In this document: positions 4,482 through 63,868 of the stretch, piece by piece
Layout of the letters: every line of letters begins with the position of its first letter
How positions within the stretch are numbered: position 1 is the stretch's first letter
Source: Monarcha castaneiventris obscurior
Taxonomy: Eukaryota > Chordata > Aves > Passeriformes > Monarchidae
Direction of reading: 5' to 3'
Length of the DNA stretch: 64,000 nucleotides
Assembly: GCA_026261815.1 (NCBI GenBank)
Contig: JAMPIT010000580.1
Coordinates: 62,001 to 126,000 of the forward strand
The notes under the pieces: generated by a model
Database searches by the model: none
What the model was told of the DNA's origin: nothing
Seen by the model: only the letters and a program-made list of their open reading frames with translations
Made by a program: the position numbers and the translations under genes

Positions 4482-7400
4482 TCAGTTGGTGGAGGGTCTG
4501 TGGGGGAAGGGAGAGAGAGGGGTCAGGAAAGGGAACAGGGACCCCAAAAATGGGGCCAGGGACCCCCAAAATGGGGACAGGGACCCCAAAAAGTGACAGG
4601 GACCCCAAAATGGGGACAAAGCCACCCCAAAATGGGGACAAGAACACCCAAAATGGGGCCAGGGACCCCCAGAATGGGGACAGGGACCCCAAATGGGGAC
4701 AGTGACCCCCAAAAGGTGACAAAACCACCCCAAAATGGGGCTAGGGACCCCAAATGGGGACAGGGATCCCCTGGATCCACCCCAAATGTGACAGTGCCCC
4801 TCAAAAGGTGACAGGGACCCCTAAAGGTGACAGTGACCCCCCAAAACATGACAATGCTCCCCAAAAAGTGACAAAGCCACCCCAAAAGGGGGACAGGGAT
4901 CCCCTGGATCCACCCCAAATGTGACGGTGACCCCCCAAAAGGTGACAGTGACCTCCCAGAAAGTGACAAAGCCACCCCAAAATGGGGACAGGGACCCCCC
5001 AAAAGGTGACAGGGACCCCCAAAAAGGTGCCAAAGCCCCCCCAGAAGTGATAGGGACCCCCAAAATGGGGACAGGGACCCCCCAAAAGGTGACAGGGACC
5101 CCCAAAAGGTGCCAAAGCCCCCCCAAAAAGGTGCCAAAGCCCCCCAGACAGGGTGACAGGGACCCCCCAAAAGGTGCCAACAAGCCCCCCAAAAAGCTGC
5201 CCAAGCCGTACTTGGCCCACTCGACGTTGAGGATGAGGTGGTCGTAGCCGAAGCCCGACACCCCCGCGATGGCTCTGGCCGCGTCCTCGCGCCGGTGGAA
5301 GCTGATGAAGGCGAAACCCTGCGTGGGAGAGGGGAGCAAAAACCGGGCTAAAACCTCGGCAAAAAGGGAAAAGGGGGAAAAGGGAAAAAAAAAGGGAAAA
5401 AAGGGGGAAAAAGGGGGGGAAAGGGGGGAAAAAAGGGGGGGAAAAAAGGGGGGAGGGAAAAAGGGGAAAAAGGGGGAGAAAAAGGGGAAAAAAAGAGGAA
5501 AAAGGGGGGAAAAGGGGAAAAAAAGGAAAAAAAGGGGGAAAAAATGGGAGAAAAGGGGGGGGAAAAGGGGGGGAAAGGGGAAAGAAAAGGGGGAAAAAAG
5601 GGGGGAAAAAAGAAAAAAAGGGGAAAAAAAAGGAAAAAAGGGGGAAAAAGGGGAAAAAAGGGGAAAAAAAGAGGAAAAAGGGGGGAAAAGGGAAAAAAAA
5701 GGAAAAAAGGGGGGAAAAATGGGAGAAAAGGGGGAAAAGGGGGGGAAAGGGGGAAAAGGGGGAAAAAGGGGGGAAAAAGGGGAAAAAAGGGGAAAAAAGG
5801 GGAAAAAAGGGGGAAAAAAGGGGAAAAAAAGGGGGAAAAAAGGGGGAAAAGGGAAAAAAAGGGGGAAAAAGGGGAAAAAGCAGTGCTGGCCACGTCCCCC
5901 AGGCCCCCCAGGCCCCCCAGGCCCCCCAGGCCACCTTGGACTGGCCCGTGGTCTTGTCCTTGGCCAGGTAGATGCGGGAGATGGAGCCGAAGGGGCGGAA
6001 GAGCTCCTGCAGGTCGGTCTCACGCGTGTCCTCAGACAGGTTGGTGACGCGGATCGTGGCGTTGTCATCGGCTGAGGGTGGCAACAAAGTCACCACGAGG
6101 GCCACCAAGTGCCCAGGGGGCACCAAAAGTGCCCAGGGGTCACCAGAAGTGCCCAAAAGGAGCCCAGGTGGCCCCAAAAAGGAGCCCAGGTGGCCCCAAA
6201 AGGAGCCCAGGTGGCCCCAGAAGTGCCCAAAAGGAGCCCAGGAGGAGCCCAGGGATCACCAAAAGTGTCCAAGAGGTGCCCAGGTGTCCCCCAAAGTGCC
6301 CAAAAGGAGCCCAGGGGTCACCAAATGGAGCCCAGGTGGCCCCAGAAGTGCCCAGGTGGCCCCAAAAGGAGCCCAGGAGGAGCCCAGGTGGCCCCAAAAG
6401 TGCCCAAAAGGAGCCCAGATGTCACCAATAGTGCCCAGAAGTGCCCAGCTGGCCCCAAAAGTGCCCAGGTGTCACCAAATGGAGCCCAGGTGCCCCCAAA
6501 AAGGAGCCCAGGTGGCCCTGAAAGTACCCAAAAGGAGCCCAGGTGGCCCCAAAAAGGAGCCCAGGGGTCACCAAAAGTGCCCAAAAGGAGCCCAGGCAGA
6601 GCCCAGGTGTCCCCAGAAGTCCCCAAGGAGGATCCTAGGTGGCCTCAAAAGTGCCCAGTGGCCCCAAAAGGAGCCCAGGAGGAGCCCAGGTGGCCCCAAA
6701 AGGAGCCCAGGTGGCCCCAGAAGTGCCCAAAAGGAGCCCAGGAGGAGCCCAGGGATCACCAAAAGTGTCCAAGAATGCCCAGGTGTCCCCCAAAGTGCCC
6801 AAAAGGAGCCCAGGGGTCACCAAATGGAGCCCAGGTGGCCCCAGAAGTGCCCAGGTGGCCCCAAAAGGAGCCCAGGAGGAGCCCAGGTGGCCCCAAAAGT
6901 GCCCAAAAGGAGCCCAGGAGGAGCCCAGGGGTCCCCAGAAGTGCCCAGGTGCCCCCAAAAATGATCCCAGGTGGCCCCAAAAGGAGCCCAGGAGCAGCCC
7001 AGGGATCACCAAAAATGCCCAGGTGGCCCCAAAAGTGCCCAAAAGGAGCCCAGGAGGAGCCCAGGTGGCCCCAAAAGGAGCCCAGGTGGCCCCGAAAGTG
7101 CCCAAAAGGAGCCCAGGGGTCCCCCGACAGGTTGGTGATGCGGATCGTGGCGTTGTCATCGGCTGAGGGCGGCAACAAAGTCACCACCAGGGCCACCAAG
7201 TGCCCAGGGGGCACCAAAAGGAGCCCAGATGTCACCAATAGTGCCCAGAAATGCCCAGCTGGCCCCAAAAGTGCCCAGGTGTCACCAAATGGAGCCCAGG
7301 TGCCCCCAAAAAGGAGCCCAGGTGGCCCTGAAAGTACCCAAAAGGAGCCCAGGTGGCCCCAAAAAGGAGCCCAGGGGTCACCAAAAGTGCCCAAAAGGAG

Positions 7401-8728
7401 CCCAGGCAGAGCCCAGGTGTCCCCAGAAGTCCCCAAGGAGGATCCTAGGTGGCCTCAAAAGTGCCCAGTGGCCCCAAAAGGAGCCCAGGAGGAGCCCAGG
7501 TGGCCCCAAAAGGAGCCCAGGCGGCCCCAGAAGTGCCCAAAAGGAGCCCAGGAGGAGCCCAGGGATCACCAAAAGTGTCCAAGAGGTGCCCAGGTGTCCC
7601 CCAAAGTGCCCAAAAGGAGCCCAGGGGTCACCAAATGGAGCCCAGGTGGCCCCAGAAGTGCCCAGGTGGCCCCAAAAGGAGCCCAGGGGTCCTCCGACAG
7701 GTTGGTGACGCGGATCGTGGCGTTGTCATCGGCTGAGGGCGGCAACAAAGTCACCACGAGGGCCACCAAGTGCCCAGGGGGCACCAAAAGTACCCAAAAG
7801 GAGCCCAGGAGGAGCCCAGGTGGCCCCAAAAGGAGCCCCGGGGTCACCAAAAGGGCCCAGGGGGCACCCACGGGGGCACCCAAGTCACCACAAGGGCCAG
7901 AAAGTGCCCAGGTGGCCCCAGAAGGAGCCCAGGTGGCCCCAAAAAGGAGCCCAGGAGGCCCCAAAAGTGCCCAAAAGGAGCCCAGGAGGAGCCCAGCCAT
8001 CACCAGAAGTGCCCAGGGGTCACCAGAAGTGCCCAGGTGACCTCGAAAGTGGCCAGGTGTCCCCAGAAGGAGCCCAGAGATGTCCCCAAACCCACCCAGG
8101 TGTGTCCCAAACCCCCCTAGGTGTGCCCAGGTGTATCCCAGGTGCCCCAGGTGTGCCCTCACCACGGTGGTTGGGCTGCATGGACTCCCCGCGCCGGCTG
8201 GCACCGTCCCTCAGGTGTGTCCCCAAACCCCCCAGGTGTGTCCTAGGTATCCCCAAACTCCCCAGGTGTGTCCCAAACCCCCCCAGGTGCCCCCAGGTGT
8301 ATCCCAGGTGTGCCCAGGTGTGCCCTCACCGCAGCGGTTGGGCTGCATGGACTCCCCACGCCGGCTGGCACCGTCCCTCAGGTGTGTCTCAAACCCCCTC
8401 AGGTGACCCCAAACCCCCTCAGGTGTGCCCAGGTGTGTCCCAGGTGTGCCCAGGTGTGTCCCAGGTGCCCTCAGGTGCCCCAGGTGTGCCCTCACCGCAG
8501 CGGTTGGGCTGCATGGACTCCCCACGCCGGCTGGCACCGTCCCTCAGGTGTGTCCCAAACCCCCCCAGGTGTGCCCAGGTGTACCCCAGGTGCCCCCAGG
8601 TGCCCCAGGTGTGCCCTCACCGCGGCGGTTGGGCTGCATGGACTCCCCACGCCGGCTGGCACCATCCCTCAGGCTGGGCGGGACGTACTTGCCCGTCTTG
8701 CTCACCTGGGCAGCCACCGGCTCCGGCT
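4482..8728 (-). CDS. EIF3G: EIF3G exons 8-11 (linker and RRM)
   Basis: Exon 8 (8621-8728) encodes [20 protein letters not shown] and [15 protein letters not shown]. Exon 9 (5935-6071) starts the [23 protein letters not shown], then a stretch ending [13 protein letters not shown]. Exon 10 (5212-5318) carries RNP1 ([20 protein letters not shown]) and ends LNVEWA. Exon 11 (4482-4497) adds KPSTN and the stop. Aromatic residues of RNP1 (F at positions 2 and 4, plus the ISF phenylalanine) are intact. Exon 10 to 11 uses donor AA|GTACGG. Confidence 0.97.
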
Positions 8729-11700
8729 CTGGGAGGGACAGGTGAGACACAGGTGAGGCACAGGTGAGGCACAGGTGAGGCACAGGTGAGGCACAGGTGA
8801 GGGACAGGTGAGAGGGGACAGGTGAGGGACAGGGAGGGACAGGTGAGACAGATGAGGGACAGGGGAGAGGGGAGGGAGGGACAAGAGAGGCAGGGGAGGG
8901 ACAGGGAGGACAGGTGAGGGGACAGGTGAGGGACAGGTGAGAGGGGACAGGTGAGAGACAGGTGAGGGACACGGGAGGGACAGGGGAAGGACAGGTGAGG
9001 CACAGGGGAGAGGGAACAAGTGAGATGGGAGGGACAGGTGAGGGAGAGGTGAGAGGTCAGACAGGTGAGGGGACAGGTGAGACAGGGGAGGGACAGGGCA
9101 GGGAGAGGTGAGGCACAGGTGGGACAGGGGAGGGACAGGTGAGAGGGACAGGTGAGACAGGTGAGAGGTGAGGGAGGGACAGGTGAGACAGGGGAGGGAC
9201 AGGTGAGAGGAGAAGGTGAGGGAGAGGTGAGAGGGGACAGGTGAGGGCAGAGTGTGAGAATGGGGGAAATTCCCCCCCAAAAAAAGCAGGATTTGGGGTT
9301 CCTACCCCTGGGAAGTTTCTCCTTCTCCCCCTTGGACAGCCCCAGCTGCTCGGCAGCTCCTTCTGCTCCAATGACCCCAAATGTCCCCAAATGACCCCAA
9401 AAGACCCCAAAATGTCCCCAAGCTCTGGGACCTCATACAAAAATGGGCAAAAATGGGAAAAATTCCCAAAAAAAGCAGGATTTGGGGTTCCTACCCCCAA
9501 GAATCTTCTCCTTTTGGACAGCCCCAGCTGCTCAACAGCTCCTTCAGCTTGGGACCTCCACAGCGACCCCAAATGTCCCCAAGCTCTGGGACCTCATACA
9601 GAAATGGGGGAAAAGCTGGGAAAAACTCCCAAAAAAACCAGGATTTGGGGTTCCTACCCCTGGGAAGTTTCTCCTTCTCGCCCGTGGACAACCCCAGCTG
9701 CTCGGCCAGCTCCTTCTGCTCCAATGACCCCCAATGTCCCCAAAAGACCCCAAAATGTCCCCAAAAGACCCCAAAATGTCCCCAAGCTCTGGGACCTCAT
9801 ACAAAAATGGGGAAAAACGGGAAAAATTCCCCCAAAAAAGCAGGATTTGGGGTTCCTAGCCCTGGGAAGTTTCTCCTTCTCGCCAGTGGACAGCCCCAGC
9901 TGCTCGGCAGCTCCTTGTGCTGCAATGATCCCAAATGTCCCCAAGCTTTGGGACCTCATACAAACATGGGGGAAAAACTGGGAAAAATGGGAAAAATTTC
10001 CCAAAAAAAGCAGGATTTGGGGTTCCTACCCCTGGGAAGTTTCTCTTTCTCCCCCGTGGACAGCCCCAGCTGCTCAGCAGCTCCTTGTGCTTGGGGCCGC
10101 CACAGCGACCCCAGTGACCCTGGGGTCAATGAGCTCTGGGACCTCGTACAGAAATGGGGAAAAATGGGAAAAATTCCCCAAAAAAAGCAGGATTTGGGGT
10201 TCCTACCCCCGGGAAGCTTCTCCTTCTCGCCCGTGGACAGCCCCAGCTGCTCGGCAGCTCCTTGTGCTCGGGGCCACCACAGCGACCCCAGTGACCCCGA
10301 TCTCCGGGACCTCATAAAAAACTGGGGGAAAAGGTGGGAAAAATTCCCAAAAAAAGCGGGATTTGGGTTTCCTACCCCCGGGAAGTTTCTCCTTCTCGCC
10401 CGTGGACAGCCCCAGCTGCTCAGCCAGCTCCTTCTGCATGGGCCCCAGCGTGTCCTTGTAGGGGCAGCGCGTGGTCCAGTGGTCGCCCTTGCAGATGCGG
10501 CAGGAGACGATCTTCTGGCCCTTGAGCTTGTTCATGGGGTCCTCCTCCTCCTGGCAGTTCAGGTCCTGTGGGGGCACCTGGGTCACACCTGGGGCACACC
10601 TGGGGCACCTGTGCACACCTGGGGACCTGGGTCACACCTGTGCATCATGGCACCTGGGTGACCCAGGGATCACCTCCCTCCTGGCATCAGGTCCTGTGGG
10701 GGCACACCTGGGCACACCTGGGGCACACCTGGGGGCACCTGGGATAGACCTGGGCACACCTGGGGCACACCTGGGCACACCTGGTCACACCTGGGGGCAG
10801 CTGGGGCACCTGGGTCACACCTGGGGGCACCTGTGATAACCTGGGCACACCTGAGAACACCTGGGGAGCTGGGGCACACCTGGGTCACACCTGGGTCACA
10901 CCTGGGTCACACCTAGGGGCAGCTGGGGGCACCTGGGCATGGGGCAGACCCAGGGATGTTCATGGGGCCCTCCTCCTCCTGGCAGTTCAGGTCCTGTGGG
11001 GGCACCTGGGCACACCTGGGCACACCTGGGCACACCTGGGGCACCTGGGGCACACCTGGGTGCACCTGGGTAGACCTGGGCACACCTGGGTCACACCTGA
11101 GTGCACCTGGGTCACACCTGGGTCACCTGGGGACCTGGGACACACCTGGGCCCACCTGGGTCACACCTGAGCACCCCTGGTCACACCTGGGGGCAGCTGG
11201 GGCACCTGGGTCACACCTGGGGGCACCTGGGATAGACCTGGGTACACCTGGGCATCCCTGGGTACACCTGTGATAGACCTGGGCACACCTGAGAACACCT
11301 CGGGGCAGCTGGGGGCAGCTGGGGCACACCTGGGTCACACCTGGGTCACACCTGGGTCACACCTAGGGGCAGCTGGGGGCACCTGGGCATGGGGCAGACC
11401 CAGGGATGTTCATGAGGTCATCCTCCTCCTGGCAGTTCAGGTCCTGTGGGGGCACCTGGGCACACCTGGGCACACCTGGGGGCAGCGGGGGGCACCTGGA
11501 ATAGACCTGGGGCACACCTGGGGGGCTCTGGGCACACCTGGGATAGACCTAGGCACACCTGGGGCACCCCTGGGCACACTGGGGCACACCTGGGGGGCTC
11601 TGGGCACGCCTGGGGCACACCTGGGCACACCTGGGTCACACCTGGGGGCAGCTGAGGGGCTCTGGGCACACCTGGGGCACACCTGGGGCACACCTGGGTC

Positions 11701-14700
11701 CTGTTTGGGCACACCTGGGGCGGTTCTGGGCACACCTGGGTCCTATTTGGGCACACCTGGGGCACAGCTGGGGTTACCTTGGGCACACCTGGGGCACAGC
11801 TGGGGTTACCTGGGGCACACCTGGGGCACAGCTGGGGCACAGCTGGGCACACCTGGGCACACCTGGGCCCCCCTCACCTCCTTGCTGGTGATGAAGGTCA
11901 TGAAGACGTCGTCGCTCACGGTCGTCGTGGCCACGTTGGGCCCGGGGGCGTCGAACTCGGAATTCCCAAACTTCTTCCAGTTCTGGGGGAAGGGGGAGGG
12001 AAAATCAGTGGGAAAAGTGGGGGGATGAGCCCCGGAAATCCCGGGAAATCGGGGTTTGGGAATTCTGTCCCCACTCCTGAGGGAGTCCCTCCCCTTTTTT
12101 CCATGGGAAATCCCCATTTTTCCAAGGGAAACATCCCCCATTCCTGTGGGAATTCCTATTGCTGTTCCCAGGGAATCGATCCCTGTTCCCATTCCCAGAG
12201 AAATCGATCCCATTTCCCAGGGAACCAATCCCACCCCATTCCCACAGAAATCAATCCCTTTTTCCATTCCCAGAGGAATCAATCCCACCCCACTGCCATT
12301 CCCAGGGAATCGATCCCTGTTCCCATTCCCAAGGAATCAATCCCACCCCATTCCCATGGGAATCGATCCCATTCCCAAGGAATCCCTGTTCCCATTCCCA
12401 TGGAATCCATTCCCATTCCCAGGGAATCCCCGTTCCCATTCCCATGGGATCCCCATTCCCATTCCCACTCCCATTCCCAATCCCACTCCCATTCCCAAGG
12501 AACCCATTCCCATTCCATTCCCATCCCCATTCCCAGGGAACCCATTCCCATTCCCAATCCCATTCCCAAGGAACCCATTCCCATTCCCAAGGAATCGATC
12601 CCATTCCCAGGGAATCAATCCCACCCCATTCCCATTCCCAAGGAACCCATTCCCATTCCCCATCCCCATCCCCATGGAATCGATCCCATTCTCATTCCCA
12701 GGGAATCCCACCCCATTCCCATTCCCAAGAAATCTATTCCCATTCCCAGGGAATCAATCCCACCCCATTCCCATTCCCAGGGAATCCCCATTCCCAAGGA
12801 ACCCATTCCTATCCCCATTCCCATCTCCATTCCCATTCCATTCCCATTCCCAATCCCATTCCCATTCCCAATCCAATTCCCATCCCCGTTCCCATTCCCA
12901 AGGAACCCATTCCCAAAGAAATCAATTCCCATTCTCAAGGGATCAATCCCACCCCATTCCCATTCCCACAGGAATCAATCCCACCCCATTCCCATCCCCA
13001 TTCCCATTCCCGTGGGATCCCCATTCCCATTTCCATTCCCATTCCCAAGGAATTCCCATTCCCATTTCCATTTCCATTCCCATTCCCAAGGAATTCCCAT
13101 TCCCATTCCATTCCCATTCCCAGGGAATCCCTGTTCCCGTTCCCATTCCCAAAGAATCCATTCCCATTCCATTCCCATTCCATTCCCATTCCCATTCCCA
13201 CTCCCACTCCCACTCCCACTCCCATTCCCAGGGAGTCCATTCCCATTCCCATTCCCATTCCCAATCCCAATCCCAATCCCATTCCCAAAGAATCCATTCC
13301 CATTCCATTCCCATTCCCATTCCCACTCCCACTCCCATTTCCATCCCCACTCCCATTCCCATTCCCATTCCCATTCCCATTCCCATTCCCATTCCCAATC
13401 CCAATCCCATTCCCAAAGAAATCCAATCCCATTCCCAATCAATCCCGACCTTGCGCCGGGCCACGGCCTTGGAGGCTTTCCGGGTCTCGATGCGGAACGT
13501 GCGGATGATCTGGGAACGGCAAATTCGGGATCGGGCGGGGCCAGGGCTGGGAAAGGCCCCGGGGACCCCAAAATCCCCAAATTCGGGGTGCAAAAGTGAC
13601 AAATTTGGGGATTCTTGGAGCACCTGATCCCAAAATCCCCAAATTCGGGGTGCAAAAGTGGCAAATTTGGGGATTCTTGGAGCACCTGAGCCCCAAAAAA
13701 GCCAAATCTGGGGTTCAGAGGTGCCCAAATTTGGGGCTCAGGTGCCAAATCTGGGGCTTCTTGAAGCACCTGAGCCCCAAAAAAGCCAATTTTGGGGTCC
13801 AAAAGTGACAAATTTGGGGTTACCTGGAGCACCTGATTCCAAAAACCCCAATTTCGGGGTTACCTGGAGCACTTGAGCCCCAAACCCACATAATCTGGGG
13901 TCCAAAAGTGACAAATTTGGGGGTGCCTGGAGCACCTGATCCGAAAAACCCCCGAATTTGGGGATTCTTGGAGCACCTGAGCCCCAAAACCCCCAAATTT
14001 GGAGTCCAAAAGTGACAAATTTGGGGCTTCTTGAAGCACCTGAGCCCCAAAAAAGCCAAATTTGGGGTTCAGAGGTGCCAAATTTGGGGCTTTTTGAAGC
14101 ACCTGAACCCCAAAAAAGCTGAATTTGAAGCTCAGAGGTGCCCAATGTGGGGCTGGCAGGTGCCCAATGTGGGGCTTGGGTGCCCAAATTTGGGGCTCAG
14201 GTGCCAAATTTGGGGATTTTTGGAGCACCTGAGCCCCAAACCCACAAAATCTGGAGTCCAGAAGTGCCAAATTTGGGGATTCTTGGAGCACCTGATCCCA
14301 AAAACCCCAAATCTGGGGGTGCCTGGAGCACCTGGTCCCACAAAAGCCAAATCTGGGGTTCAGAGGTGCCAAATTTGGGGGTTTTTTGAAGCACCTGAGC
14401 CTCCAAAAAGCCAAATTTGAAGCTCAGAGGTGCCCAATGTGGGGCTCAGGTGCCCATGTGGGGCTGGCAGGTGCCAGATTTGGGGCTCAGGTACCAAATT
14501 TGGGGCTTCTTGAAGCACCTGAGCCCCAAACCCACAAAATCTGGGGTCCAAAAGGGACAAATTTGGGGATTCTTGGAGCACCTGAGCCCCAAAAAAGCCA
14601 AGTTTGGAGTTCAGAGGTGCCCCCTGTGGGGCTGGCAGGTGCCCATGTGGGGCTCAGGTGCCCATGTGGGGCTGGCAGGTGCCAAATTCGAGCTCCCTGA

Positions 14701-17700
14701 AGCACCTGAGCCCCAAAAAAGCCAAATTTGAAGCTCAAAGGTGCCCAAATGTGGGGCTCAGGTGCCAATGTGGGGCTGGCAGGTGCCAGATTTGGGGCTC
14801 AGGTGCCAAAATGTGAGACTCAGGTGCCCATGTGGGGCTCAGGTGCCCAAATGTGGGGCTCAGGTGCCCATGTGGGGCTCAGGTGCCCAATGTGGGGCTC
14901 AGGTGCCCAAATGTGGGGCTCAGGTGCCCGATTTGGGGCTCAGGTGCCCATGTGGGGCTCAGGTGCCCATGTGGGGCTGGCAGGTGCCAGATCTGGGGCT
15001 CAGGTGCCCAAATGTGGGGCTCAGGTGCCCAAATGTGGGGCTCAGGTGCCCATGTGGGGCTCAGGTGCCCAATGTGGGGCTGGCAGGTGCCAGATTTGGG
15101 GCTCAGGTGCCCAAATGTGGGGCTGAGGTGCCCAAATGTGGGGCTCCGGTGCCAGATTTGGGGCTCAGGTGCCCAATGTGGGGCTCAGGTGCCAGATTTG
15201 GGGCTCAGGTGCCCAATGTGGGGCTGGCAGGTGCCAGATTTGGGGCTCAGGTGTCCATGTGGGGCTCAGGTGCCCAATGTGGGGCTGGCAGGTGCCAGAT
15301 TTGGGGCTCAGGTGTCCATGTGGGGCTCAGGTGCCCCCCGTGCCCCCACCTTGACCTTGCGCCCGTCCTCCTCCTCGCGGTACTCGGTGATGGTTTTGAT
15401 GTTGCCGTTCACCACCTCCTTGGGGGAGGGGAGGGGCCCTGGGGAGGGGCACAGGTGAGCTCAGGTGGGACCAGGTGTGCCCCAGGTGTGCCCCAGGTGT
15501 GCCCAGAGCCCCCAGGTGTGCCCCAGGTGTGCCCCAGGTGTGCCCAGAGCCCCCAGGTGTGCCCCAGGTGTGCCCCACGTGTGCCCAGAGCCCCCAGGTG
15601 TGCCCCAGGTGTGCCCTGAGCCCCCCAGGTGTGCCCCAGGTGTGCCCCACGTGTCCCAGAGCCCCCCAGGTGGCCCAGGTGTGCCCCAGAGCCCCCCAGG
15701 TGTGCCCCAGGTGTGCCGACCCAGTGTGTGCCCAGGTGTGCCCAGAGGCCCCCCAGGTGGTCCCAGAGCCCCCCAGGTTGTGCACCAGGTGGCCCAGGTG
15801 TGCCCCAGGTGTGCCCATGAGCCCCCCAGGTGTGGCCCCAGTGTGCCAGAGCCCCCGTGTGCCCAGAGCCCCCCAGTGTGTGTCCAGAGCCCCCCAGGTG
15901 TGCGTGGTGTCCGAGCCCCCAGGTGTGCCCAGGTGTGCCCAGGAGCCCCCCAGGTGTGCCCAGAGCCCCCAGGTTGTGCCCCAGGTGTGCCCCAGTGTGC
16001 CCACGGAGTCCCCAAGGTTTGCCCCAGGTGTGCCCCCGTGTGTCCAGAGCCCCCCCAGTGTGCCCAGACCCCCCAGGTGTGCCCAGAGCCAGGTGTGCCC
16101 CACGTGTGCCCTGAGCCTCCCAGGTGTGCCCCAGGTGTGCCCTGAGCCCCCAGGTGTGCCCAGGTGTGTCCTGAACCCCCCAGGTGTGTCCCAGGTGTGT
16201 CCTGAACCCCCCAGGTGTGCCCCAGGTGTCCCCAAAGCCCCCCAGGTGTGCCCCAGGTGTGCCCTGAGCCCCCCAGGTGTGCCCCAGGTGTGTCCAGAGC
16301 CCCCCAGATGTGCCCCGAGCCCCCACAGTTGTGCCCAGGTGTGCCCCAGGTGCCCTCAGGTCTGCCCAAAGCCCCCCAGGTGTGCCCAGATGTGTCCCCA
16401 GAACCCCCCTGGTGTACCCCAAATGTGCCCAGGTGTGCCCCACGTGTGCCCTGAGCCCCCCAGGTGTGCCCCAGGTGTGGCCAGAGCCCCCCAGGTGTGC
16501 CCAGGTGCCCTCAGGTCTGCCCAAAGCCCCCAGGGTGCCCAGATGTGTCCCCAAAGCCCCAGGCGTGCCCAAATGTCCAGGTGTGCCCCAGGTGTGTCCC
16601 CCAAAAGCCCCCCAGGTGTGGCCAAGTGTGGCCAGAGCCCCCAGGTGTGTCCCAGGTGCCCCCAAGCCCCCCAGGTGCCCCCCAGGTGTGTCCCTGAAGC
16701 CCCCCAGGTGCCCCCAAGGCCCCCAGGTGTGCCCCAGATGCCCCCAAAGCCCCCCAGGTGCTTCCAGAGCCCCCCAAGTGCCCCCAAAGCCCCTAGGTGT
16801 GTCCCAGGTGCCCTCCAGATGCCCCTAGAGCCCCCCAGGTGTGCCCACAGCTCCCCAGGTGTGCCCAGGTGCCCCCCAAGCCCACCCAGTTGTCCCCACG
16901 GGCCCCCAGAGCCCCCAGGTGTGCCCCAGGTGTCCCCAGAGCCCCCCATGTACCCCCAGAACCTCCCAGGTGCCCCTAGGTGCCCCCAAAGCCCCCCAGT
17001 TGCCCCAGGTGCCCCCCAGAGCCCCCCAGGTGCCCCAGAGCCCCCCAGGTGCCCCAGAGCCCCCCAGGTGCCCCCAGGCCTCACCTCCCTTGAGCAGCTT
17101 CGGCCTCGGCGCTGGAGGGGCCGCCCAGGACCCCGGGCAGGGGCAGGTCCTTGAGCAGCTCGCTGGTGATCACCTTGTCTGGGGGAGGGGCTCACCTGGC
17201 ACCGTGCCCTCACCTGGGCACAGGTACCACCCACCACCCCTCACTGGCACTGTGCCCTCACCTGGGCACAGGTAACCCTCACCTGGGCACAGGTACCACC
17301 CAACCACCCCTCACCTGGGCATGGCACCCTCACCTGGGCACGGGTACCACCCAACCACCCCTCACCTGGCACTGTGCCCTCACCTGGCCTCAGGTAACCC
17401 CCTCACCTGGGCACAGGTACCCTCACCTAGGCACCATGCCCTCACCTGGGCACAGGTAACCCCCTCACCTGGGCATGGTGCCCTCACCTGGGCACAGGTA
17501 ACCCCTCACCTGGGCTCAGGTACAACCACCCCTCACCTGGCACCGTGCCCTCACCTGGGCATGGCACCCTCACCTGGCCTCAGGTAACCCCCTCACCTGG
17601 GCACAGGTACCCTCACCTAGGCACATGCCCTCACCTGGGCACAGGTAACCCCCTCACCTGGGCTCAGGTACCACCCAACCACCCCTCACCTGGCACCGTG

Positions 17701-19825
17701 CCCTCACCTGGGCACAGGTACTACCCAACCACCCCTCACCTGGGCAAGGAGCCCTCACCTGGCCTCAGGTAACCCCCTCACCTGGGCACAGGTACCCTCA
17801 CCTAGGCACCATGCCCTCACCTGGGCTCAGGTACCCCCTCACCTGGGTACGGTGCCATCCAACCCCCTCACCTGGGCACGGTGCCCTCACCTGGCCATGG
17901 GTAACCCCCGACCACCCCTCACCTGGGCACAGGTAAGTGCCACCTGGGGGTGCCACCCCACCCTTCCCCAGCCCCTGGAATGGTTCCTTGTCCCGAAGAA
18001 CACCTGGGCCCAGGTATCACAGGTGCCCCAGGTGCCAGGGGTGCCACCCCGGGCAGGTGCCCCACATATCACAGGTGCCAGGGGTGCCCCAGGTGGCCCC
18101 CCAGGTGCCATGGGTGCCACTCACCATCCTCTCCTCCCTCCTCCTCCACCTGGTCGGCCCAGCTGGGCTTGGAACTGCCAGGACAGAGAGAGAGCCTCAG
18201 ACCCCCCTGTGCCACCCTTGGGGTCTCTGTGCCACCCTCAGACCCCCCTGTGCCTCCTGTGTGCCCTCTGTGCCACCCTCAGACCCCCCTGTGCCTCCTG
18301 TGTGCCCTCTGTGCCACCTTCAGAACCCCCTGTGACCCCCCTGTGCCACCCTCGGGCTCCCGGTGCCACCCCCAGGGTCCCTCCAATCCCGGTGCCACCC
18401 TCAGACCCTCCTGTGCCCCCCGTGTGCCCTCTGTGCCACCTCAGACCCCCCTTGCCTCCTGTGTCCCTCTGTGCACCTCAGACCCCCCTGTGCCACCCTT
18501 TGCCCTCTGTGCCACCCTCAGACCCCCCTGTGCCCCCCGTGTGCCCTCTGTGCCACCCTCAGACCCCCCTGTGCCTCCTGTGTGCCCTCTGTGCCACCCT
18601 CAGACCCCCCTGTGCCACCCGTGTGCCCTCTGTGCCACCCTCAGACCCCCCTGTGCCCCCCGTGTGCCCTCTGTGCCACCCTCAGACCCCCCTGTGCCTC
18701 CGTGTGCCTCTGTCCACCCCTCAGACCCCCCTGTGCCCTCCGTGTGCCCTCTGTTCCACCCTCAGACCCCTGTGCCTCCGTTTGCCCTCTGTGCCACCCT
18801 CAACCCCCCTGTGCCCTCGTGTGCCCTCTGTGCCACCCTCAGACCCCCCTGTGCCCTCTGTGTCCCTCTGTGCCACCCTCAGAACCCCCTGTGACCCCTG
18901 TGCCACCCTCAGCCCCCCCCGTGCCACCCTTGGGGTCCCTGTGCCACCTTCAGAACCCCCTGTGACCCCCCTGTGCCTCCTGTGTGCCCTCTGTGCCACC
19001 CTCAGACCCCCCTGTGCCCCCCGTGTGCCCCCTGTGCCACCCTCAAACCCCCTTGTGCCTCCTGTGTGCCCTCTGTGCACCCTCAGACCCCCCTTGGTGC
19101 CCCCGTGTGCCCCTGTGCCACCCTCAGACCTCCTGGGCCCTCCGTGTGCCCTCTGTGCCACCCTCGACCCCCTGTCCCCCGTGTGCCCCCTGTGCCACCC
19201 TCAGACCCCCCTGTGCCACCCTTGGGCTCCCGGTGCCACCCCCAGGGTCCCTCCTATCCCGGTGCCACCCCCGGGCTCCCTGTGCCACCCCTGGGGTCCC
19301 GGTGCCACCCTCAGACCCCCCTGTGCCACCCCCGGGCTCCCTGTGACCGGGACCTCCCAGACCCCAATCGGGACCCCCAAACCGGGACCCCCAGGAGCTC
19401 AAACCGGGACCTCAGGGACCCCAAATCGAGACCCCCGGGACCCCCAATCGGGACCTCCGGGCCTCACAACCGGGACCTACAACCGGCACCTCAGGCCGCG
19501 ATTCACAACCAGGACCTCTGGGACCCCAAATCGAGACCTCCGGGATCCCAACCGGGACCGACCGGGCCCCGCCAGGCCGCAGCCCCGCTCCTGGTCACTT
19601 CTCCCGGTCCCACCCCCGCTCCCGGTCCCGGTCCCGGTCCCGGTCCCCCCTCACAGCCCCAGGCCCGGCGCCCCCCCCGCCGCCGCTCCCGATCCACCCC
19701 CAACCCCACTCCCGCCGCCAATCCCAGTTCCCCGCCGCACTCCCGCCGCCGATCCCCGTTCCCAGCCCCGTTCCCGGCGCCGTTCCCGGCGTTTTTCCCC
19801 CTCACTCGTAGTCCCCGGTCGGCAT
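4482..19825 (-). CDS. EIF3G: Eukaryotic translation initiation factor 3 subunit G, complete, 11 exons
   Basis: Coding exons in order: 19806-19825, 18125-18174, 17085-17178, 15350-15438, 13450-13509, 11878-11982, 10376-10565, 8621-8728, 5935-6071, 5212-5318, 4482-4497. The product is the RNA-binding subunit of eIF3, which acts in 43S scanning and re-initiation. It starts MPTGDY, has a CCHC zinc knuckle ([13 protein letters not shown]) near residues 160-175, and a C-terminal RRM with RNP2 IRVTNL and RNP1 KGFAFISF. It ends VEWAKPSTN, as in mammals. Predicted length is about 324 aa against 320 in human. The start is chosen by match to vertebrate MPTGD and by the donor right after it. The summed coding length is 976 nt: exon 3 ends with two spare bases and exon 4 begins with two, so the frame slips by one there. 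The likeliest cause is one surplus C in a five-C run in exon 4. Confidence 0.97.
4498..5211. repeat. EIF3G intron 10, GACAGGGACCCCAAAATGGG minisatellite
   Basis: Nearly the whole intron is tandem units of about 20-24 bp (+ strand GACAGGGACCCCCAAAATGGG, alternating with GGTGACAGGGACCCCCAAAA). A longer unit with CCCCTGGATCCACCCCAAATG occurs at about 4770 and 4905. Open frames on both strands across it are repeat artefacts. Confidence 0.8.
5357..5880. repeat. EIF3G intron 9 homopurine tract (about 520 bp)
   Basis: Essentially pure purine on the + strand: runs of 3-9 A alternating with runs of 2-8 G, with a few interrupting T or C. On the transcribed strand it is polypyrimidine and begins about 40 nt upstream of the exon 10 acceptor at 5318/5319, so it looks like an enormously expanded polypyrimidine tract. 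Mirror symmetry makes triplex (H-DNA) formation plausible. Confidence 0.9.
7124..7220 (-). repeat. Copy 1 of EIF3G exon 9 5' edge with acceptor, inside intron 8
   Basis: Carries the intron end, the acceptor CCGCCCTCAG and about the first 38 nt of exon 9, encoding [12 protein letters not shown], before running back into the repeat. One codon differs from the true exon (Val to Ile). The true edge is at 6071/6072. There is no matching donor, so it is an acceptor-only exon fragment. Confidence 0.9.
7690..7790 (-). repeat. Copy 2 of EIF3G exon 9 5' edge with acceptor, inside intron 8
   Basis: Second intronic copy of the exon 9 acceptor and first codons, encoding [14 protein letters not shown], followed on the intron side by the same GTCACCACGAGGGCCACC segment that flanks the true exon. 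It lies about 570 bp from copy 1, the size of the higher-order block of this intron. Confidence 0.9.
8153..8550 (-). repeat. Three copies of EIF3G exon 8 3' edge with donor, inside intron 8
   Basis: Copies at about 8153-8214, 8322-8381 and 8489-8548 reproduce the last 50 or so nt of exon 8 (encoding [15 protein letters not shown] and the arginine codons) plus the donor GTGAGGGCACACC. The true edge is at 8620/8621. Spacing is about 168, 167 and 132 bp. Between the exon fragments lies CCCCAGGTGTGCCC repeat. Each copy is a potential alternative 5' splice site. Confidence 0.92.
8735..9250. repeat. EIF3G intron 7, GGGACAGGTGAG minisatellite
   Basis: Short units (about 10-13 bp) of GGGACAGGTGAGG and GGCACAGGTGAG fill the part of intron 7 nearest exon 8. 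No coding potential. Confidence 0.85.
9251..10375 (-). repeat. EIF3G intron 7, six tandem copies of exon 7 3' edge with donor
   Basis: Units of about 163-202 bp (starts near 9301, 9490, 9653, 9855, 10025, 10202; true edge 10376). Each holds about 65 nt of the end of exon 7 (encoding [18 protein letters not shown]) and its GTAGG donor, then about 100 bp of intron (AACCCCAAATCCTGCTTTTTTT and CCCAGAGCTTGGGGAC on the minus strand). The exon part is well conserved between copies; one at about 9490 has an 8-nt deletion. Any of these could compete as a 5' splice site. Confidence 0.93.
10376..13509 (-). CDS. EIF3G: EIF3G exons 5-7 (conserved core and CCHC zinc knuckle)
   Basis: Exon 5 (13450-13509) encodes [20 protein letters not shown]. 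Exon 6 (11878-11982) encodes [16 protein letters not shown] and then [19 protein letters not shown]. Exon 7 (10376-10565) encodes [18 protein letters not shown], the zinc knuckle with C-x2-C-x3-H-x4-C spacing, then [20 protein letters not shown] and EKEKLPG. These are near-identical to mammalian eIF3g. Exon 7 is exceptional because both of its edges, with their splice sites, are copied in the flanking introns. Confidence 0.96.
10566..11877. repeat. EIF3G intron 6, CACACCTGGGGCACCTGGG minisatellite
   Basis: The intron is almost wholly CACACCTGGG or GGCACCTGGGTCACACCTGG units. Two further copies of the exon 7 5' edge lie inside, at 10959-11007 and 11409-11457, with the acceptor CCCCCACAG and about 34 nt of exon (encoding DLNCQEEED). 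A shorter one is at 10678-10704. The true edge is at 10565/10566. Copies are about 450 bp apart. Confidence 0.88.
11983..13449. repeat. EIF3G intron 5, (GGGAAT)n-like simple satellite
   Basis: About 12113-13440 is a near-continuous array of ATTCCC (GGGAAT on the minus strand), broken by AAGGAATC, AGGGAATC and CACCCC spacers. Only about 130 bp next to exon 6 is non-repetitive. Long open frames of alternating Pro/Ile/His/Ser or Gly/Met/Asn on both strands are products of the 6-bp period. Confidence 0.92.
13510..15349. repeat. EIF3G intron 4, two minisatellite families
   Basis: About 13580-14740 has units of about 75 bp (AAATTTGGGGATTCTTGGAG, CACCTGAGCCCCAAAAAAGCC). About 14740-15330 has units of about 22 bp (GGCTCAGGTGCCCAAATGTGG). 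The two families share CTCAGGTGCC, and the second may derive from the first. Confidence 0.85.
15350..19825 (-). CDS. EIF3G: EIF3G exons 1-4 (N-terminal, eIF3-core-binding region)
   Basis: Exon 1 (19806-19825) encodes MPTGDY plus two bases. Exon 2 (18125-18174) encodes [16 protein letters not shown], matching the conserved [15 protein letters not shown]. Exon 3 (17085-17178) encodes [17 protein letters not shown] and then a Gly/Ala/Glu-rich segment. Exon 4 (15350-15438) encodes [19 protein letters not shown] and then DGRKVK. All junctions are GT-AG. The exon 3/4 phases do not match (2+2). Reading four instead of five C in the run at 15413-15417 of the + strand complement area would not help, but removing one base from the G run at 15422-15426 (C run on the minus strand) gives R-A-P-P-L-P-K-E-V-V, close to human GAPLPPPKEV. 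Confidence 0.9.
15439..17084. repeat. EIF3G intron 3, CCCCAGGTGTGCCCAGAGCC minisatellite
   Basis: The whole intron is degenerate CCAGGTGTGCCC and AGAGCCCCCCAGGTG units. If a micro-exon restoring the exon 3/4 phase exists it would have to lie here, but I see none with recognisable coding sequence. Confidence 0.82.
17179..18124. repeat. EIF3G intron 2, CCTCACCTGGGCACAGGTACC minisatellite
   Basis: About 17190-17935 is tandem CCTCACCTGGGCACAGGTAACC units with ACCACCCAACCACCCCTCACC spacers. The last 190 bp near exon 2 is CAGGTGCCCCAGGTG-rich. Confidence 0.82.
18175..19805. repeat. EIF3G intron 1, CCTCAGACCCCCCTGTGCC minisatellite
   Basis: About 18195-19340 has units of about 35-58 bp (GTGTGCCCTCTGTGCCACC, CTCAGACCCCCCTGTGCC). 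About 19340-19560 has CGGGACCCCCAAA / GGGACCTC units. About 19560-19805 is non-tandem, very GC-rich sequence approaching exon 1, part of the promoter CpG island. Confidence 0.82.
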
Positions 19826-20005
19826 CGCCTCCGCCGCCCTCACGCCGCACACCGGAAAGGCCGCCCGCCACTTCCGGCGCGAGCGCGGCACTTCCGGCGG
19901 GGGAGAGAGCGGGAAACGCCCCGCGCGCGCGGCATGGCGGGAAGCGGTTGCTAAGCAACGCCGCCGTGAGGCCTGAGGCCTACTCGTAGCGCGGCGGGAG
20001 CGAAG
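19826..20005 (-). promoter_or_regulatory. EIF3G: EIF3G promoter / 5' UTR, CpG-rich
   Basis: About 180 bp between the EIF3G start codon and the DNMT1 3' end. It is CpG-dense and has two ACTTCCGG motifs (about 19869-19876 and 19891-19898), the reverse of the ETS/GABPA consensus, plus a palindrome at 19947-19959. These are typical of a housekeeping TATA-less promoter. The start site itself is not visible. Confidence 0.6.
19947..19959. promoter_or_regulatory. X-box-like palindrome GTTGCTAAGCAAC
   Basis: A perfect 13-bp inverted repeat, GTTGCT-A-AGCAAC, matching the RFX-family X-box pattern (GTTRCY n AGCAAC). It lies about 125 bp upstream of the EIF3G start codon and about 75 bp past the DNMT1 poly(A) signal. 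Binding is inferred from the motif only. Confidence 0.5.
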
Positions 20006-20027
20006 GGTTTATAATTTATAGTTGCGA

Positions 20028-20033
20028 TTTATT
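20028..20033 (-). promoter_or_regulatory. DNMT1 poly(A) signal AATAAA
   Basis: The + strand TTTATT is AATAAA on the minus strand, about 640 nt after the DNMT1 stop. Cleavage would fall near 20010, almost at the EIF3G promoter. The flanking 20010-20060 is AT-rich, unlike the surrounding sequence. Confidence 0.75.
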
Positions 20034-20673
20034 TGAAGAAATATTACAACATATAAAAACTACATAAAGTATCGAGTTCCACCTTGTACAAAGCGGCCGC
20101 GGGGGGGGGTGGGTACAATGCGATAAAAACGGGGGGAGCGGGCCCCCGGGGGGAGGTTGGACCAGCACAGACAGCACGGAGGGAGGGGGAATTTAAAAAA
20201 TAAAAAAATAATTAAAAAAATAAACAAAAGCCGAAGAGGAAAAATATTAAAAAAAAAAATAAAAGAAGATGGAAACAAAACAAAACAAAAAAATTCCAGG
20301 AAAAAAATTAAAGAGAAGAATGGAGGGAGAAAATTAAAAAAACTCAAGGGGAAAGTAAGGGAGATGGAGTTGAAAATAAGGAGAAAAAAGCAGGGAAAAG
20401 AAGAGGAAAAAAGGAAAAAAAAAAAGGTGGGAGAAAGCAAGGGATATAAAGAGCGAGGAAAAAAGAAGGGAAAAAAAAAAGAGAAAAGAAGAAAAAAAAA
20501 TAGAGGAAAAACAAGGGCAAACCAGAGAAAAACTGGGAAAAAAAGAAGCAAAAAAAAAAGCGGAAAAAAACAAAAGAAAAAAAGCCAAAGCAAAGCAAAA
20601 GGCCGAAAAAATCCCCAAATCAAGCAAGGCACCCCCGTGTCCCCCCCCGGGCGTCTCCGGGCTCCGTGGGGCC
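20034..20673 (-). other. DNMT1: DNMT1 3' UTR
   Basis: Sequence between the DNMT1 stop and its poly(A) signal. Bases 20185-20625 are almost pure A/G on the + strand, so the mRNA carries a U/C-rich tract with long U runs (possible PTB or HuR-type binding, inferred). The stretch 20095-20160 is G/C-rich. Confidence 0.7.
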
Positions 20674-55660
<34,987 letters not shown>

Positions 55661-56010
55661 CGGGAGCGGGGCGGGGGCCGGGCGGGGGGCGCGGGGCGGG
55701 CTCGGGGCCCGGTTCGGGGCCCGGTTCGGGGCCGGGTCGGGGCCGCGCTCGGCGGGACCGGGAGCGGCTTCGCGCGGAAACGAGCGGCGGGGGCGGGGCG
55801 GCGCCGGCAGCCACCACCGCGCGGGGGGAGCCGGCGCGCACCATGCTGCCGCCGCGGGGGGGGGGGGGGGAAACGCGGGGTACAGCGATCGCCGCCGCAC
55901 GGCGGGCAGCGGAGAGGGACGGGGGGGCACCGGAGGGGTCGGGTCGGTACCGGGGAGGGGGCGGAAAAAGCGGGGGGGGGGGGGAAGGGGAGGCCTCAAG
56001 GGGGGCAGGA
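55661..56010 (-). promoter_or_regulatory. DNMT1: DNMT1 promoter / 5' UTR CpG island
   Basis: Very CpG-rich sequence upstream of the DNMT1 start (island about 55440-56010 including exon 1). A GC-box (GGGGCGGGGC, about 55790) and an E2F-like TTTCCGCGC (minus strand, about 55772-55780) are visible, in line with the S-phase regulation known for DNMT1. No TATA box. The transcription start is not determined. Confidence 0.65.
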
Positions 56011-57240
56011 GCGGTGAGGGGGAGGCGGGAGGTACCACTGAGGGGCGGCGGGGGGAGAAGGAAGGTACCACTGAGGGGGGTATGGGAGGTACCACTGAGG
56101 GGCAGCGGGGGGGGGCGGGAGGTACCACTGAGGGGCGGCGGGGGGAGAAGGAAGGTACCACTGAGGGGGGTGTGGGAGGTACCACTGAGGGGAGGCGGGG
56201 GGGAGCATGGGCTGTACCACTGCAAGGCAGCGTGGGGGGGAAAGCGGGTTGTACCACTGTGAAGGGGGGGACAGGCACCCCAGTGTCCATCCGGGGTCAC
56301 CCCAGTGCCCCCCAGTATGTCCCCAGTGCCCCCCCAGTATCCCCCCAGTGCCACCCCAGTGCCCCCCAGACCCCCCCAGTGTCCCCCAGACCCCCCCAGT
56401 GTCCCCCAGTGCCCCCAGTATCCCCCAGTGCCTCCCAGTGCCCCCCAGTATCCCCCAGTGTCCCCCAGTGTCCCCCCAGTGCCCCCAGTATGTCCCCAGT
56501 GCCCCCCCAGTGCCCCCCAGTTTCCCCCCAGTGTCCCCAGTATCCCCCAGTTTCCCTCCAGTGCCCCCCCAGTGTCCCCCCAGTATGTCCCCAGTGCCCC
56601 CCAGTGTCCCCCAGCTTCCCCCAGGTGCCCCCCCAGTATCCCCCAGTGCCCCCCAGTTTCCCCCCCAGTTTCCCCCCAGTGCCCCCCATGCCCCAGTGTC
56701 CCAGTGCCCCCCCAGTGCCAACCCAGTATCCCCCAGGCCCCCAGACCCCCCCAGTGTCCCCCCGTGTCCCCCCAGTGCCCCCAGTATCCCCCCAGTGTCC
56801 CCCAGTGCCCCCCAGTTTGACCCCAGTGCCCCCAGTGCCCCCCAGTGTCCCCCAGTGCCTCCCCTCAGTATCCCCCAGTGCTCCCCAGTATCGCCCAGTG
56901 TCCCCCAGACCCCCTCAGTGTCCCCCCAGTTTGACCCCAGTGCCTCCCAGTATCCCCCAGTGTCCCTCCAGTGCCCCCAAGTGCCCCCAGTATCCCTCCA
57001 GGTCCCCCAGTGACCCCAGTGCCTCCCAGTGCCCCCAGTATCCCAGTGTCCCTCAGTGCCCCCCCAGTGCCCCCAGTTGTCCCCAGTGCCCCCCCAGTGT
57101 CCCCCCAGTGTCCCCAGTGCCCCCCCAGTGCCCCCAGTATCCCCCCAGTGTCCCCCCAGTTTGACCCCAGTGCCTCCCAGTATCCCCCAGTGCCCCCCCA
57201 GTGCCCCCCCAGCCCCGGCACAGCCCCCTCAGCACGGACC
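56011..57240. repeat. Intergenic repeats between DNMT1 promoter and MCOLN1 3' end
   Basis: About 56030-56270 has GAGGTACCACTGAGGGGCGG units of about 30-60 bp. About 56280-57230 is a C-rich array of CCCCCCAGTGTCCCCCAGT units of about 9-12 bp. No gene is supported here. Confidence 0.85.
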
Positions 57241-57259
57241 CTTTTTGTCCCAGGTCACT

Positions 57260-57265
57260 TTTATT
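57260..57265 (-). promoter_or_regulatory. MCOLN1 poly(A) signal AATAAA
   Basis: TTTATT on the + strand, AATAAA on the minus strand, about 870 nt after the MCOLN1 stop. The transcript would end near 57240, where the intergenic C-rich array begins. Confidence 0.72.
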
Positions 57266-58137
57266 GCCCCCTTAGGGACCCCCCCTCCCCCCCCAAGTGT
57301 GCCCACACCCCAAATTTGGGGTGAAAAGCGACGTTTTTGGGTGTTGGGGGGCTGGGGGGGGGGAACCGGAGCCGCTCCAGCAACCCCAAGGACAAGGACA
57401 GGTCCCAAAGTGTCCCCAAAAAGGGATCCGGGGATCCCAAAGTTCCAAATTTTCCCCCAAAAAATGAGCTGGGGATCCCAAAGTGTCCCCAAAAAGGGAT
57501 CCAGCGGGTCCAAAGGTTCCAAATTTTCCCCCAAAAAATGAGCTGGGGATCCCGAAGTGTCCCCAGAAATGGATTTGGGGATCCCAAAGCATCCCCAAAA
57601 ACGGATTCAGGGATCCCAAAGTGTGCCCAAAAATGGATTTTGGGATCCTAAAGTGTCCCCAAAAACGGATCCGGGGATCCCAAAGTGTCCCCAAAAATGG
57701 ATTTGGGGATCCCAAAGTGTCCCCAAAAAACAGATTTGGGGGTCTCGTGGTTCCAGCTTTACCCCAAAACCACACCTGGGGGTCCTGAAATTCCAAACTA
57801 CCCCGAAAAAATCCCAATTTGGGGGTCCCAAAGTTCCAACCCCCCCCTAAAAAAAATCCATCCCAGAGATCCCAAAACGCCCCCAAAAACAGATTTGGGG
57901 GGTCCCAGGGTCCAAACCCCCCCTTAAAAAAATCCATCCCGGGGGTCTCTGTGGAGCCCCGAGGGGGGGTCCCAGTCCTTCCCAGTCCTTCCCAGTCCTT
58001 CCCAGTCCTTCCCAGTTCCTCCCAGTTTGGCACCGGGAGCTGCTCGGGGTCGGGGTCCCGGGGGTGCCACCCCAAATTTGGGGTCCCGGGCGGGTAAAAG
58101 CAGAGGATAAAATAAATTAAAAGCTGGGGGGGGTCCC
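57266..58137 (-). other. MCOLN1: MCOLN1 3' UTR
   Basis: Contains a 33-36 bp repeat (AAAAATGGATTTGGGGATCCC, AAAGTGTCCCC) at about 57410-57740, and five copies of CCCAGTCCTT at about 57970-58020. Otherwise no coding potential. Confidence 0.65.

Positions 58138-63868
<5,731 letters not shown>

Follow-up and report, generated by a model that had tools for sequence, protein, structure and literature searches.

Genes and Exons of the Window

The window, i.e., the whole 64,000-nucleotide stretch of DNA that was analysed, carries EIF3G, DNMT1 and the 3′ end of MCOLN1, and all three genes lie on the minus strand. Exon location by tblastn and splice-consistent joining placed EIF3G exons from 19825 down to 5212, DNMT1 exons from 48567 down to 22126 (a range that starts after the earlier exons of this gene) and three 3′ exons of MCOLN1 from 63847 to 58850. 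DNMT1 exons 3–31, EIF3G exons 4–10 and the three MCOLN1 exons join in open frame. DNMT1 exons are numbered here as in our own map, and the numbers of a preliminary description of this DNA appear to be these plus two. Within DNMT1, the edges of exons 2–6 and the exon 23 acceptor are placed with less certainty than the other edges. EIF3G exon 3 (window 17178-17085) encodes AEAEAAQG in place of the AEAELLKG of other passerine models and is out of phase with exon 4; it probably holds one extra base, as an assembly error or a real change.

Rows of Tandem Repeats Finder (TRF) account for 74% of the window; among intron bases their share is 83%, and among exon bases 4%. The 41 introns total 40,190 bases, a length that falls to 13,016 after each array is collapsed to one unit. 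For example, an array of a 72-nt unit (15.4 copies, window 46035-47143) fills the intron between DNMT1 exons 2 and 3. An Rfam search of the window at the gathering threshold gave no matches. Composition and genes suggest a dot-type microchromosome as the probable location.

Exon-Edge Copies in the Adjacent Introns

Twelve exon–intron junctions are accompanied by copies of their exon edge in their own intron:

10957..11443, minus strand: EIF3G intron 6, two copies of the 5′-terminal 37 nt of exon 7 (10565-10376) and its acceptor, both with AG
9306..10275, minus strand: EIF3G intron 7, six copies of the exon 7 3′ end (at most 69 nt) and its donor, spacing 163-202, GT in 5/6
8162..8548, minus strand: EIF3G intron 8, three copies of the 3′-terminal 53 nt of exon 8 (8728-8621) and its donor, GT in all
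7119..7732, minus strand: EIF3G intron 8, two copies of the 5′-terminal 44 nt of exon 9 (6071-5935) and its acceptor, both with AG
42441..43413, minus strand: DNMT1 intron 11, seven copies of the 3′-terminal 20 nt of exon 43697-43546 and its donor, GT in all
41809..41851, minus strand: DNMT1 intron 12, one copy, diverged (78%), of the donor and 3′ edge of exon 42164-41977
38285..39113, minus strand: DNMT1 intron 15, array of short copies of the 3′ edge of exon 39321-39174, GT in 11/13
37919..38157, minus strand: DNMT1 intron 16, 48-nt units (4.9 copies by TRF) with the last 27 nt of exon 38246-38131 and the donor; the array extends into its exon
33961..34072, minus strand: DNMT1 intron 21, one copy of the 3′-terminal 110 nt of exon 34756-34564 and its donor (93 nt ungapped)
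61766..62494, minus strand: MCOLN1, five copies of the 5′-terminal 58-60 nt of exon 61688-61482 and its acceptor, AG in all
60382..61356, minus strand: MCOLN1, donor and 3′ edge (about 31 nt) of exon 61688-61482 in three close copies and a weaker one, GT in all
59086..60158, minus strand: MCOLN1, 5′-terminal 31 nt of exon 59021-58850 in 16 copies, AG in 8 and none in 8

A screen with 20 bases of each exon edge and a cut-off of 16 matches found 49 copies at 12 of the 82 junctions (8 of 41 donors and 4 of 41 acceptors), where 0.34 copies are expected by chance from other introns and 0.30 from the opposite strand, and none of 48 mid-exon 20-mer controls had copies. A looser search (20 matches of 30) at the 12 positive junctions yielded 62 copies. 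When 44 exons were compared with the window by blastn, 40 off-exon matches fell in the adjacent intron in sense orientation, and 39 of these came within 7 nt of the exon edge; the remaining six matches were weak (E 8e-5 to 7e-4) and lay elsewhere or on the opposite strand. Identity of the copies to their exon ranges from 71 to 100%, with both shared and private changes. As repeats occupy so much of the window and its introns, arrays that reach exons are unsurprising here.

The preliminary description had claimed arrays across the three genes whose units join an exon edge to its splice site and sit in the adjacent intron while the authentic exon stays single, and these features are real. Its counts were reproduced for EIF3G exon 7 (six at the 3′ edge; two at the 5′ edge, given as 2-3), EIF3G exon 8 (three at the 3′ edge) and exon 9 (two at the 5′ edge), for the 3′ edges of DNMT1 exons 11 and 21 (seven and one; its exons 13 and 23), and for MCOLN1 exon 61688-61482 (five at the 5′ edge; at the 3′ edge, given as 3-4, three with the exact 20-mer and one weaker). 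Two of its counts need qualification. The four copies claimed for the 3′ edge of DNMT1 exon 16 (its exon 18) correspond to four places with 22-33 of 35 matches, of which two pass the 20/30 cut and one the 16/20 cut, and the array at the 5′ edge of MCOLN1 exon 59021-58850 is present with 16 copies instead of about 12, AG being retained in 8. The DNMT1 exon 12 and exon 15 donors come in addition to its list. Copy number at the latter depends on the cut, with four copies at 16/20 and 13 at 20/30, and copy length is 35 nt in the first copy and 9-14 nt in most others.

Relationship to Exon Stuttering

It had also been stated that no named class exists for such arrays. This does not hold, since the class has been called exon stuttering, or sequence stuttering, by Hron et al. 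(2026; PMC12954441), whose text on chicken dot microchromosomes includes copied splice sites. Within the collection of papers searched, these two terms led to that paper alone. According to passages of PMC12954441, the edge of a coding exon is repeated with its donor or acceptor through the adjacent intron, the exon is unaltered, the introns are full of imperfect tandem repeats, and confident distal copies are absent, all of which is common to the window. Here, the host introns are heavily covered by repeats (83% of intron bases vs 4% of exon bases), and the coding exons are intact as exon stuttering demands, judging from the open-frame joins, with the exception of EIF3G exon 3 and its probable one-base error.

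The published blastn-short screen was nearly repeated, using our own exon table, the sense strand and five shuffles, with the repeat filter and manual review omitted. It gave 43 proximal and 7 distal matches of at least 20 bases. At a score of at least 42.1 bits, there were 31 proximal matches in 6 of 41 introns and no distal match in the 41 introns, and the best match in five shuffles of the introns scored 24.3 bits. The source of all 31 confident matches begins 0-7 nt from the exon border, and their exon part has a median of 37 nt; for chicken, passages of PMC12954441 give over 90% within 1 base of the border and a median exon part of 36 nt. The window differs in that exon stuttering was published for chicken and the present case is a passerine, and in that 6 of 41 introns here compare with 3.4% of chicken dot-chromosome introns at the same score cut (PMC12954441). 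EIF3G, DNMT1 and MCOLN1 are absent from the main text of that paper, whose supplementary list of 115 genes lies outside this comparison. The class is described there as having a strong preference for dot microchromosomes, and a main feature of it is an intron length that differs widely between individuals (PMC12954441); the window is one sequence. The window arrays are a case of exon stuttering in another lineage and other genes, not a new class. They extend the phenomenon from chicken to a songbird and to genes outside the main text of the chicken paper, including DNMT1.

Older relatives can be named. Turri et al. in 1995 reportedly described, to judge by the title, a minisatellite that gives multiple splice donors in an interferon-induced human transcript; a unit carrying a splice donor is common to that case and the window, and a single human locus is the difference, both points being taken from the title. 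Zhuo et al. in 2007 are said to have treated introns from tandem arrays. Internal tandem repeats at exon–intron boundaries of human genes are treated in passages of PMC2812944. These cases and those of Zhuo et al. resemble the window in having boundary repeats in which splice sites take part and through which splicing can change. There, as far as those passages go, the repeats form or change introns in recent paralogues, whereas in the window existing introns are enlarged and the exon is left single (PMC2812944).

Probable Capture of Exon Edges and Growth of the Arrays

The exon base at which each copy ends in ungapped extension served as its breakpoint. A common exon breakpoint was found in EIF3G at 37 nt in 2/2 copies (exon 7, 5′ edge), 53 nt in 3/3 (exon 8) and 44 nt in 2/2 (exon 9), in DNMT1 at 20 nt in 7/7 (exon 11) and 27 nt in 2/2 (exon 16), and in MCOLN1 at 31 nt in 4/4 (3′ edge) and 58-60 nt in 4/5 (5′ edge) of exon 61688-61482 and at 31 nt in 13/16 for exon 59021-58850. 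EIF3G exon 7 donor copies have no single clean breakpoint (19-62 nt, partly via indels), nor does the DNMT1 exon 15 array; two of the 12 junctions have a single copy each. In 5 of 9 arrays, at least one substitution foreign to the authentic junction is common to all copies used, copies below 75% identity having been left out (1/6, 1/5, 1/4 and 2/16). Judged from these sequence patterns, most multi-copy arrays look like one exon-edge capture followed by amplification inside the intron. Stepwise copying between neighbours has mixed support, adjacent copies being more alike than chance in 2 of 5 arrays (permutation p below 0.05). Capture through similarity between exon breakpoint and intron array was rejected as a general rule, as this similarity was in the top tenth for 1 of 12 junctions only; a shared 6-mer between breakpoint and intron array is missing at 6 of 12 junctions.

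The preliminary description had proposed a mechanism that duplicates junctions as such. In a placement model, the observed unit lengths of TRF arrays with a period of at least 60 (n = 42) were dropped at random over introns plus exon edges, and junction-crossing arrays were expected at 6.5 of 42 with the present introns and 16.8 of 42 with collapsed introns (6.7-17.7 of 50 arrays at a period cut of 40; 5.6-14.0 of 30 at 80). The 12 junctions observed fall between the bounds of 6.5 and 16.8, which are rough, being far apart, and 3 of the 12 junctions have mostly shorter units. Only one of these 42 arrays is drawn by TRF itself to more than 15 nt inside an exon. Because the number of junctions with copies is within the rough random-placement range, no junction-directed mechanism is needed. 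It is improbable that a process aimed at junctions, e.g., one coupled to splicing or R-loops, copies them into introns: copies occur at 12 of 82 junctions with every copy run reaching the junction, and 12 exceeds the lower bound, but it lies under the upper bound, many purely intronic arrays occupy the same introns, and the shared breakpoints indicate few events. The statement that copies always sit on the intron side is right in that they lie in the adjacent intron; the geometry of tandem duplication would produce this with no special rule, since one breakpoint in the exon and one in the intron would leave the far exon part single and place the copies intron-side. Selection would eliminate most duplications confined to an exon.

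Exon stuttering in a songbird, by capture through local tandem duplication and then intronic growth, is very probably the best explanation of the copies, common exon breakpoints, retained splice sites and match to the published screen, which are directly observed. Local tandem duplications would arise at a high rate in GC-rich introns by slippage, template switching or unequal exchange, and wherever a breakpoint fell inside an exon, the intron would gain that exon's edge along with its splice site. Capture would have happened once in most arrays, with later growth among units inside the intron, so that the exon stays single. Splicing presumably still uses the exon-proximal site, which would leave the mRNA unchanged, and the captured edges, probably without function, would drift like other intron sequence.

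Comparison with Other Birds

Protein searches put the window with the passerines, probably in a species other than zebra finch. The DNMT1 protein is 99% identical to that of Corvus moneduloides and 97% to that of zebra finch (among 120 listed of 1,253), and the MCOLN1 protein is 97% identical to that of Cyanocitta cristata and 93% to that of zebra finch (among 120 listed of 1,699); for EIF3G, conservation is too strong to be informative. Clear EIF3G edge repeats occur in 2 of 25 birds by name, zebra finch and Grallaria, and in none of 18 named non-birds (among 120 listed of 1,679), and the Vidua model has one 8-residue repeat, out of order. The Grallaria varia model P0112 repeats the exon 7 end, and the zebra finch (Taeniopygia guttata) model P0116 contains two extra copies of the exon 7 start that end at the same exon-7 breakpoint as two window copies, both being gene models and not transcripts. 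The residues after each P0116 copy were back-translated and compared with the bases after the window copies. For one copy, the fit to the bases after both window copies beats that to any of 1,236 other positions in the same intron and 1,500 sampled EIF3G intron positions; for the other it is weaker, equalled by 0.9% of same-intron positions. Copy spacing differs, with 92 and 75 residues in the zebra finch model vs 450 and 428 bases in the window. Since the exon-7 breakpoint is the same and one unit matches in another species, one EIF3G exon-7 capture seems, from these sequences, to be common to the window species and zebra finch.

A comparison of bird EIF3G models gave 12 rows with insertions at exon joins, including five that resemble read-through introns, with lengths of 66 nt for Corvus and 117 nt for Urocolius (1,312 in the window), 84 nt for Nyctibius (1,647), 81 nt for Podargus (2,549) and 78 nt for Leptocoma (616). 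The 66-nt intron 6 suggested by the Corvus model is awkward for a shared capture if the window species is a corvid relative, and reconciling the two would need loss in Corvus or a collapsed assembly. In DNMT1, exon-edge repeats were found in none of 21 birds, and 4 of 99 non-birds have repeats (among 120 listed of 1,253). Five MCOLN1 models have self-repeats, none taken as a copy of the window edges (among 120 listed of 1,699); one model, P0241, resembles two fused paralogues.

The zebra finch model also bears on the idea that the copies are false duplications of the assembly. The arrays are known here from assembled sequence alone, and the seemingly extra base in EIF3G exon 3 relative to other passerine models means that small consensus errors exist. 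Against this, the copies diverge from their exons to varying degrees (71 to 100% identity), some changes being shared and others private, the same edge and breakpoint recur in a zebra finch gene model of independent origin, and the chicken PHF8 case was, according to PMC12954441, checked on raw nanopore reads by its authors. An artefact is hardly credible. The public models P0112 and P0116 take exon-edge copies or array sequence as coding, so bird gene models need care; gene predictors can mistake such copies for coding sequence, as in the zebra finch and Grallaria EIF3G models.

Beyond the published account, our analysis suggests a single capture as the origin of an array, and captures that are traceable between species. 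Through such tracing, existing long-read genomes of birds would allow the rate and age of this instability, and its effects on splicing, to be measured.

Splice Sites in the Copies

Of the 62 copies, 51 retain the dinucleotide GT or AG: 34 of the 37 donor copies have GT, and 17 of the 25 acceptor copies have AG. All eight AG losses belong to the 16-copy MCOLN1 array. As the search that defined copies took in about 8 intron bases, this retention is slightly overestimated. By simple arithmetic, a divergence of 5-6% per site predicts GT in about 33 of the 37 donor copies, so no selection on copied splice sites is apparent for donors. The claim that each intron contains many competing splice sites holds at the level of sequence only.

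Selective maintenance of the copies as alternative or decoy splice sites that regulate these genes is very improbable. Retention of GT/AG in 51 of 62 copies and the capture seemingly common to zebra finch would fit such a role, but 56 of the 62 copies would add an in-frame stop if used as a simple exon extension, donor retention is about that from divergence alone, and AG is missing from half of the 16 MCOLN1 acceptor copies. Drift of once-captured edges remains the preferred reading. A more far-reaching view, which we consider rather unlikely, is that the captures are long-lived heritable events common to songbird lineages and that the introns hold a standing stock of intact splice sites amid surrounding units of fast turnover; if true, this stock would be a source for recruiting new isoforms or introns. 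In the 16-copy MCOLN1 array (59086-60158), the two types of copies, with and without AG, are interspersed, as if a compound unit had been amplified.
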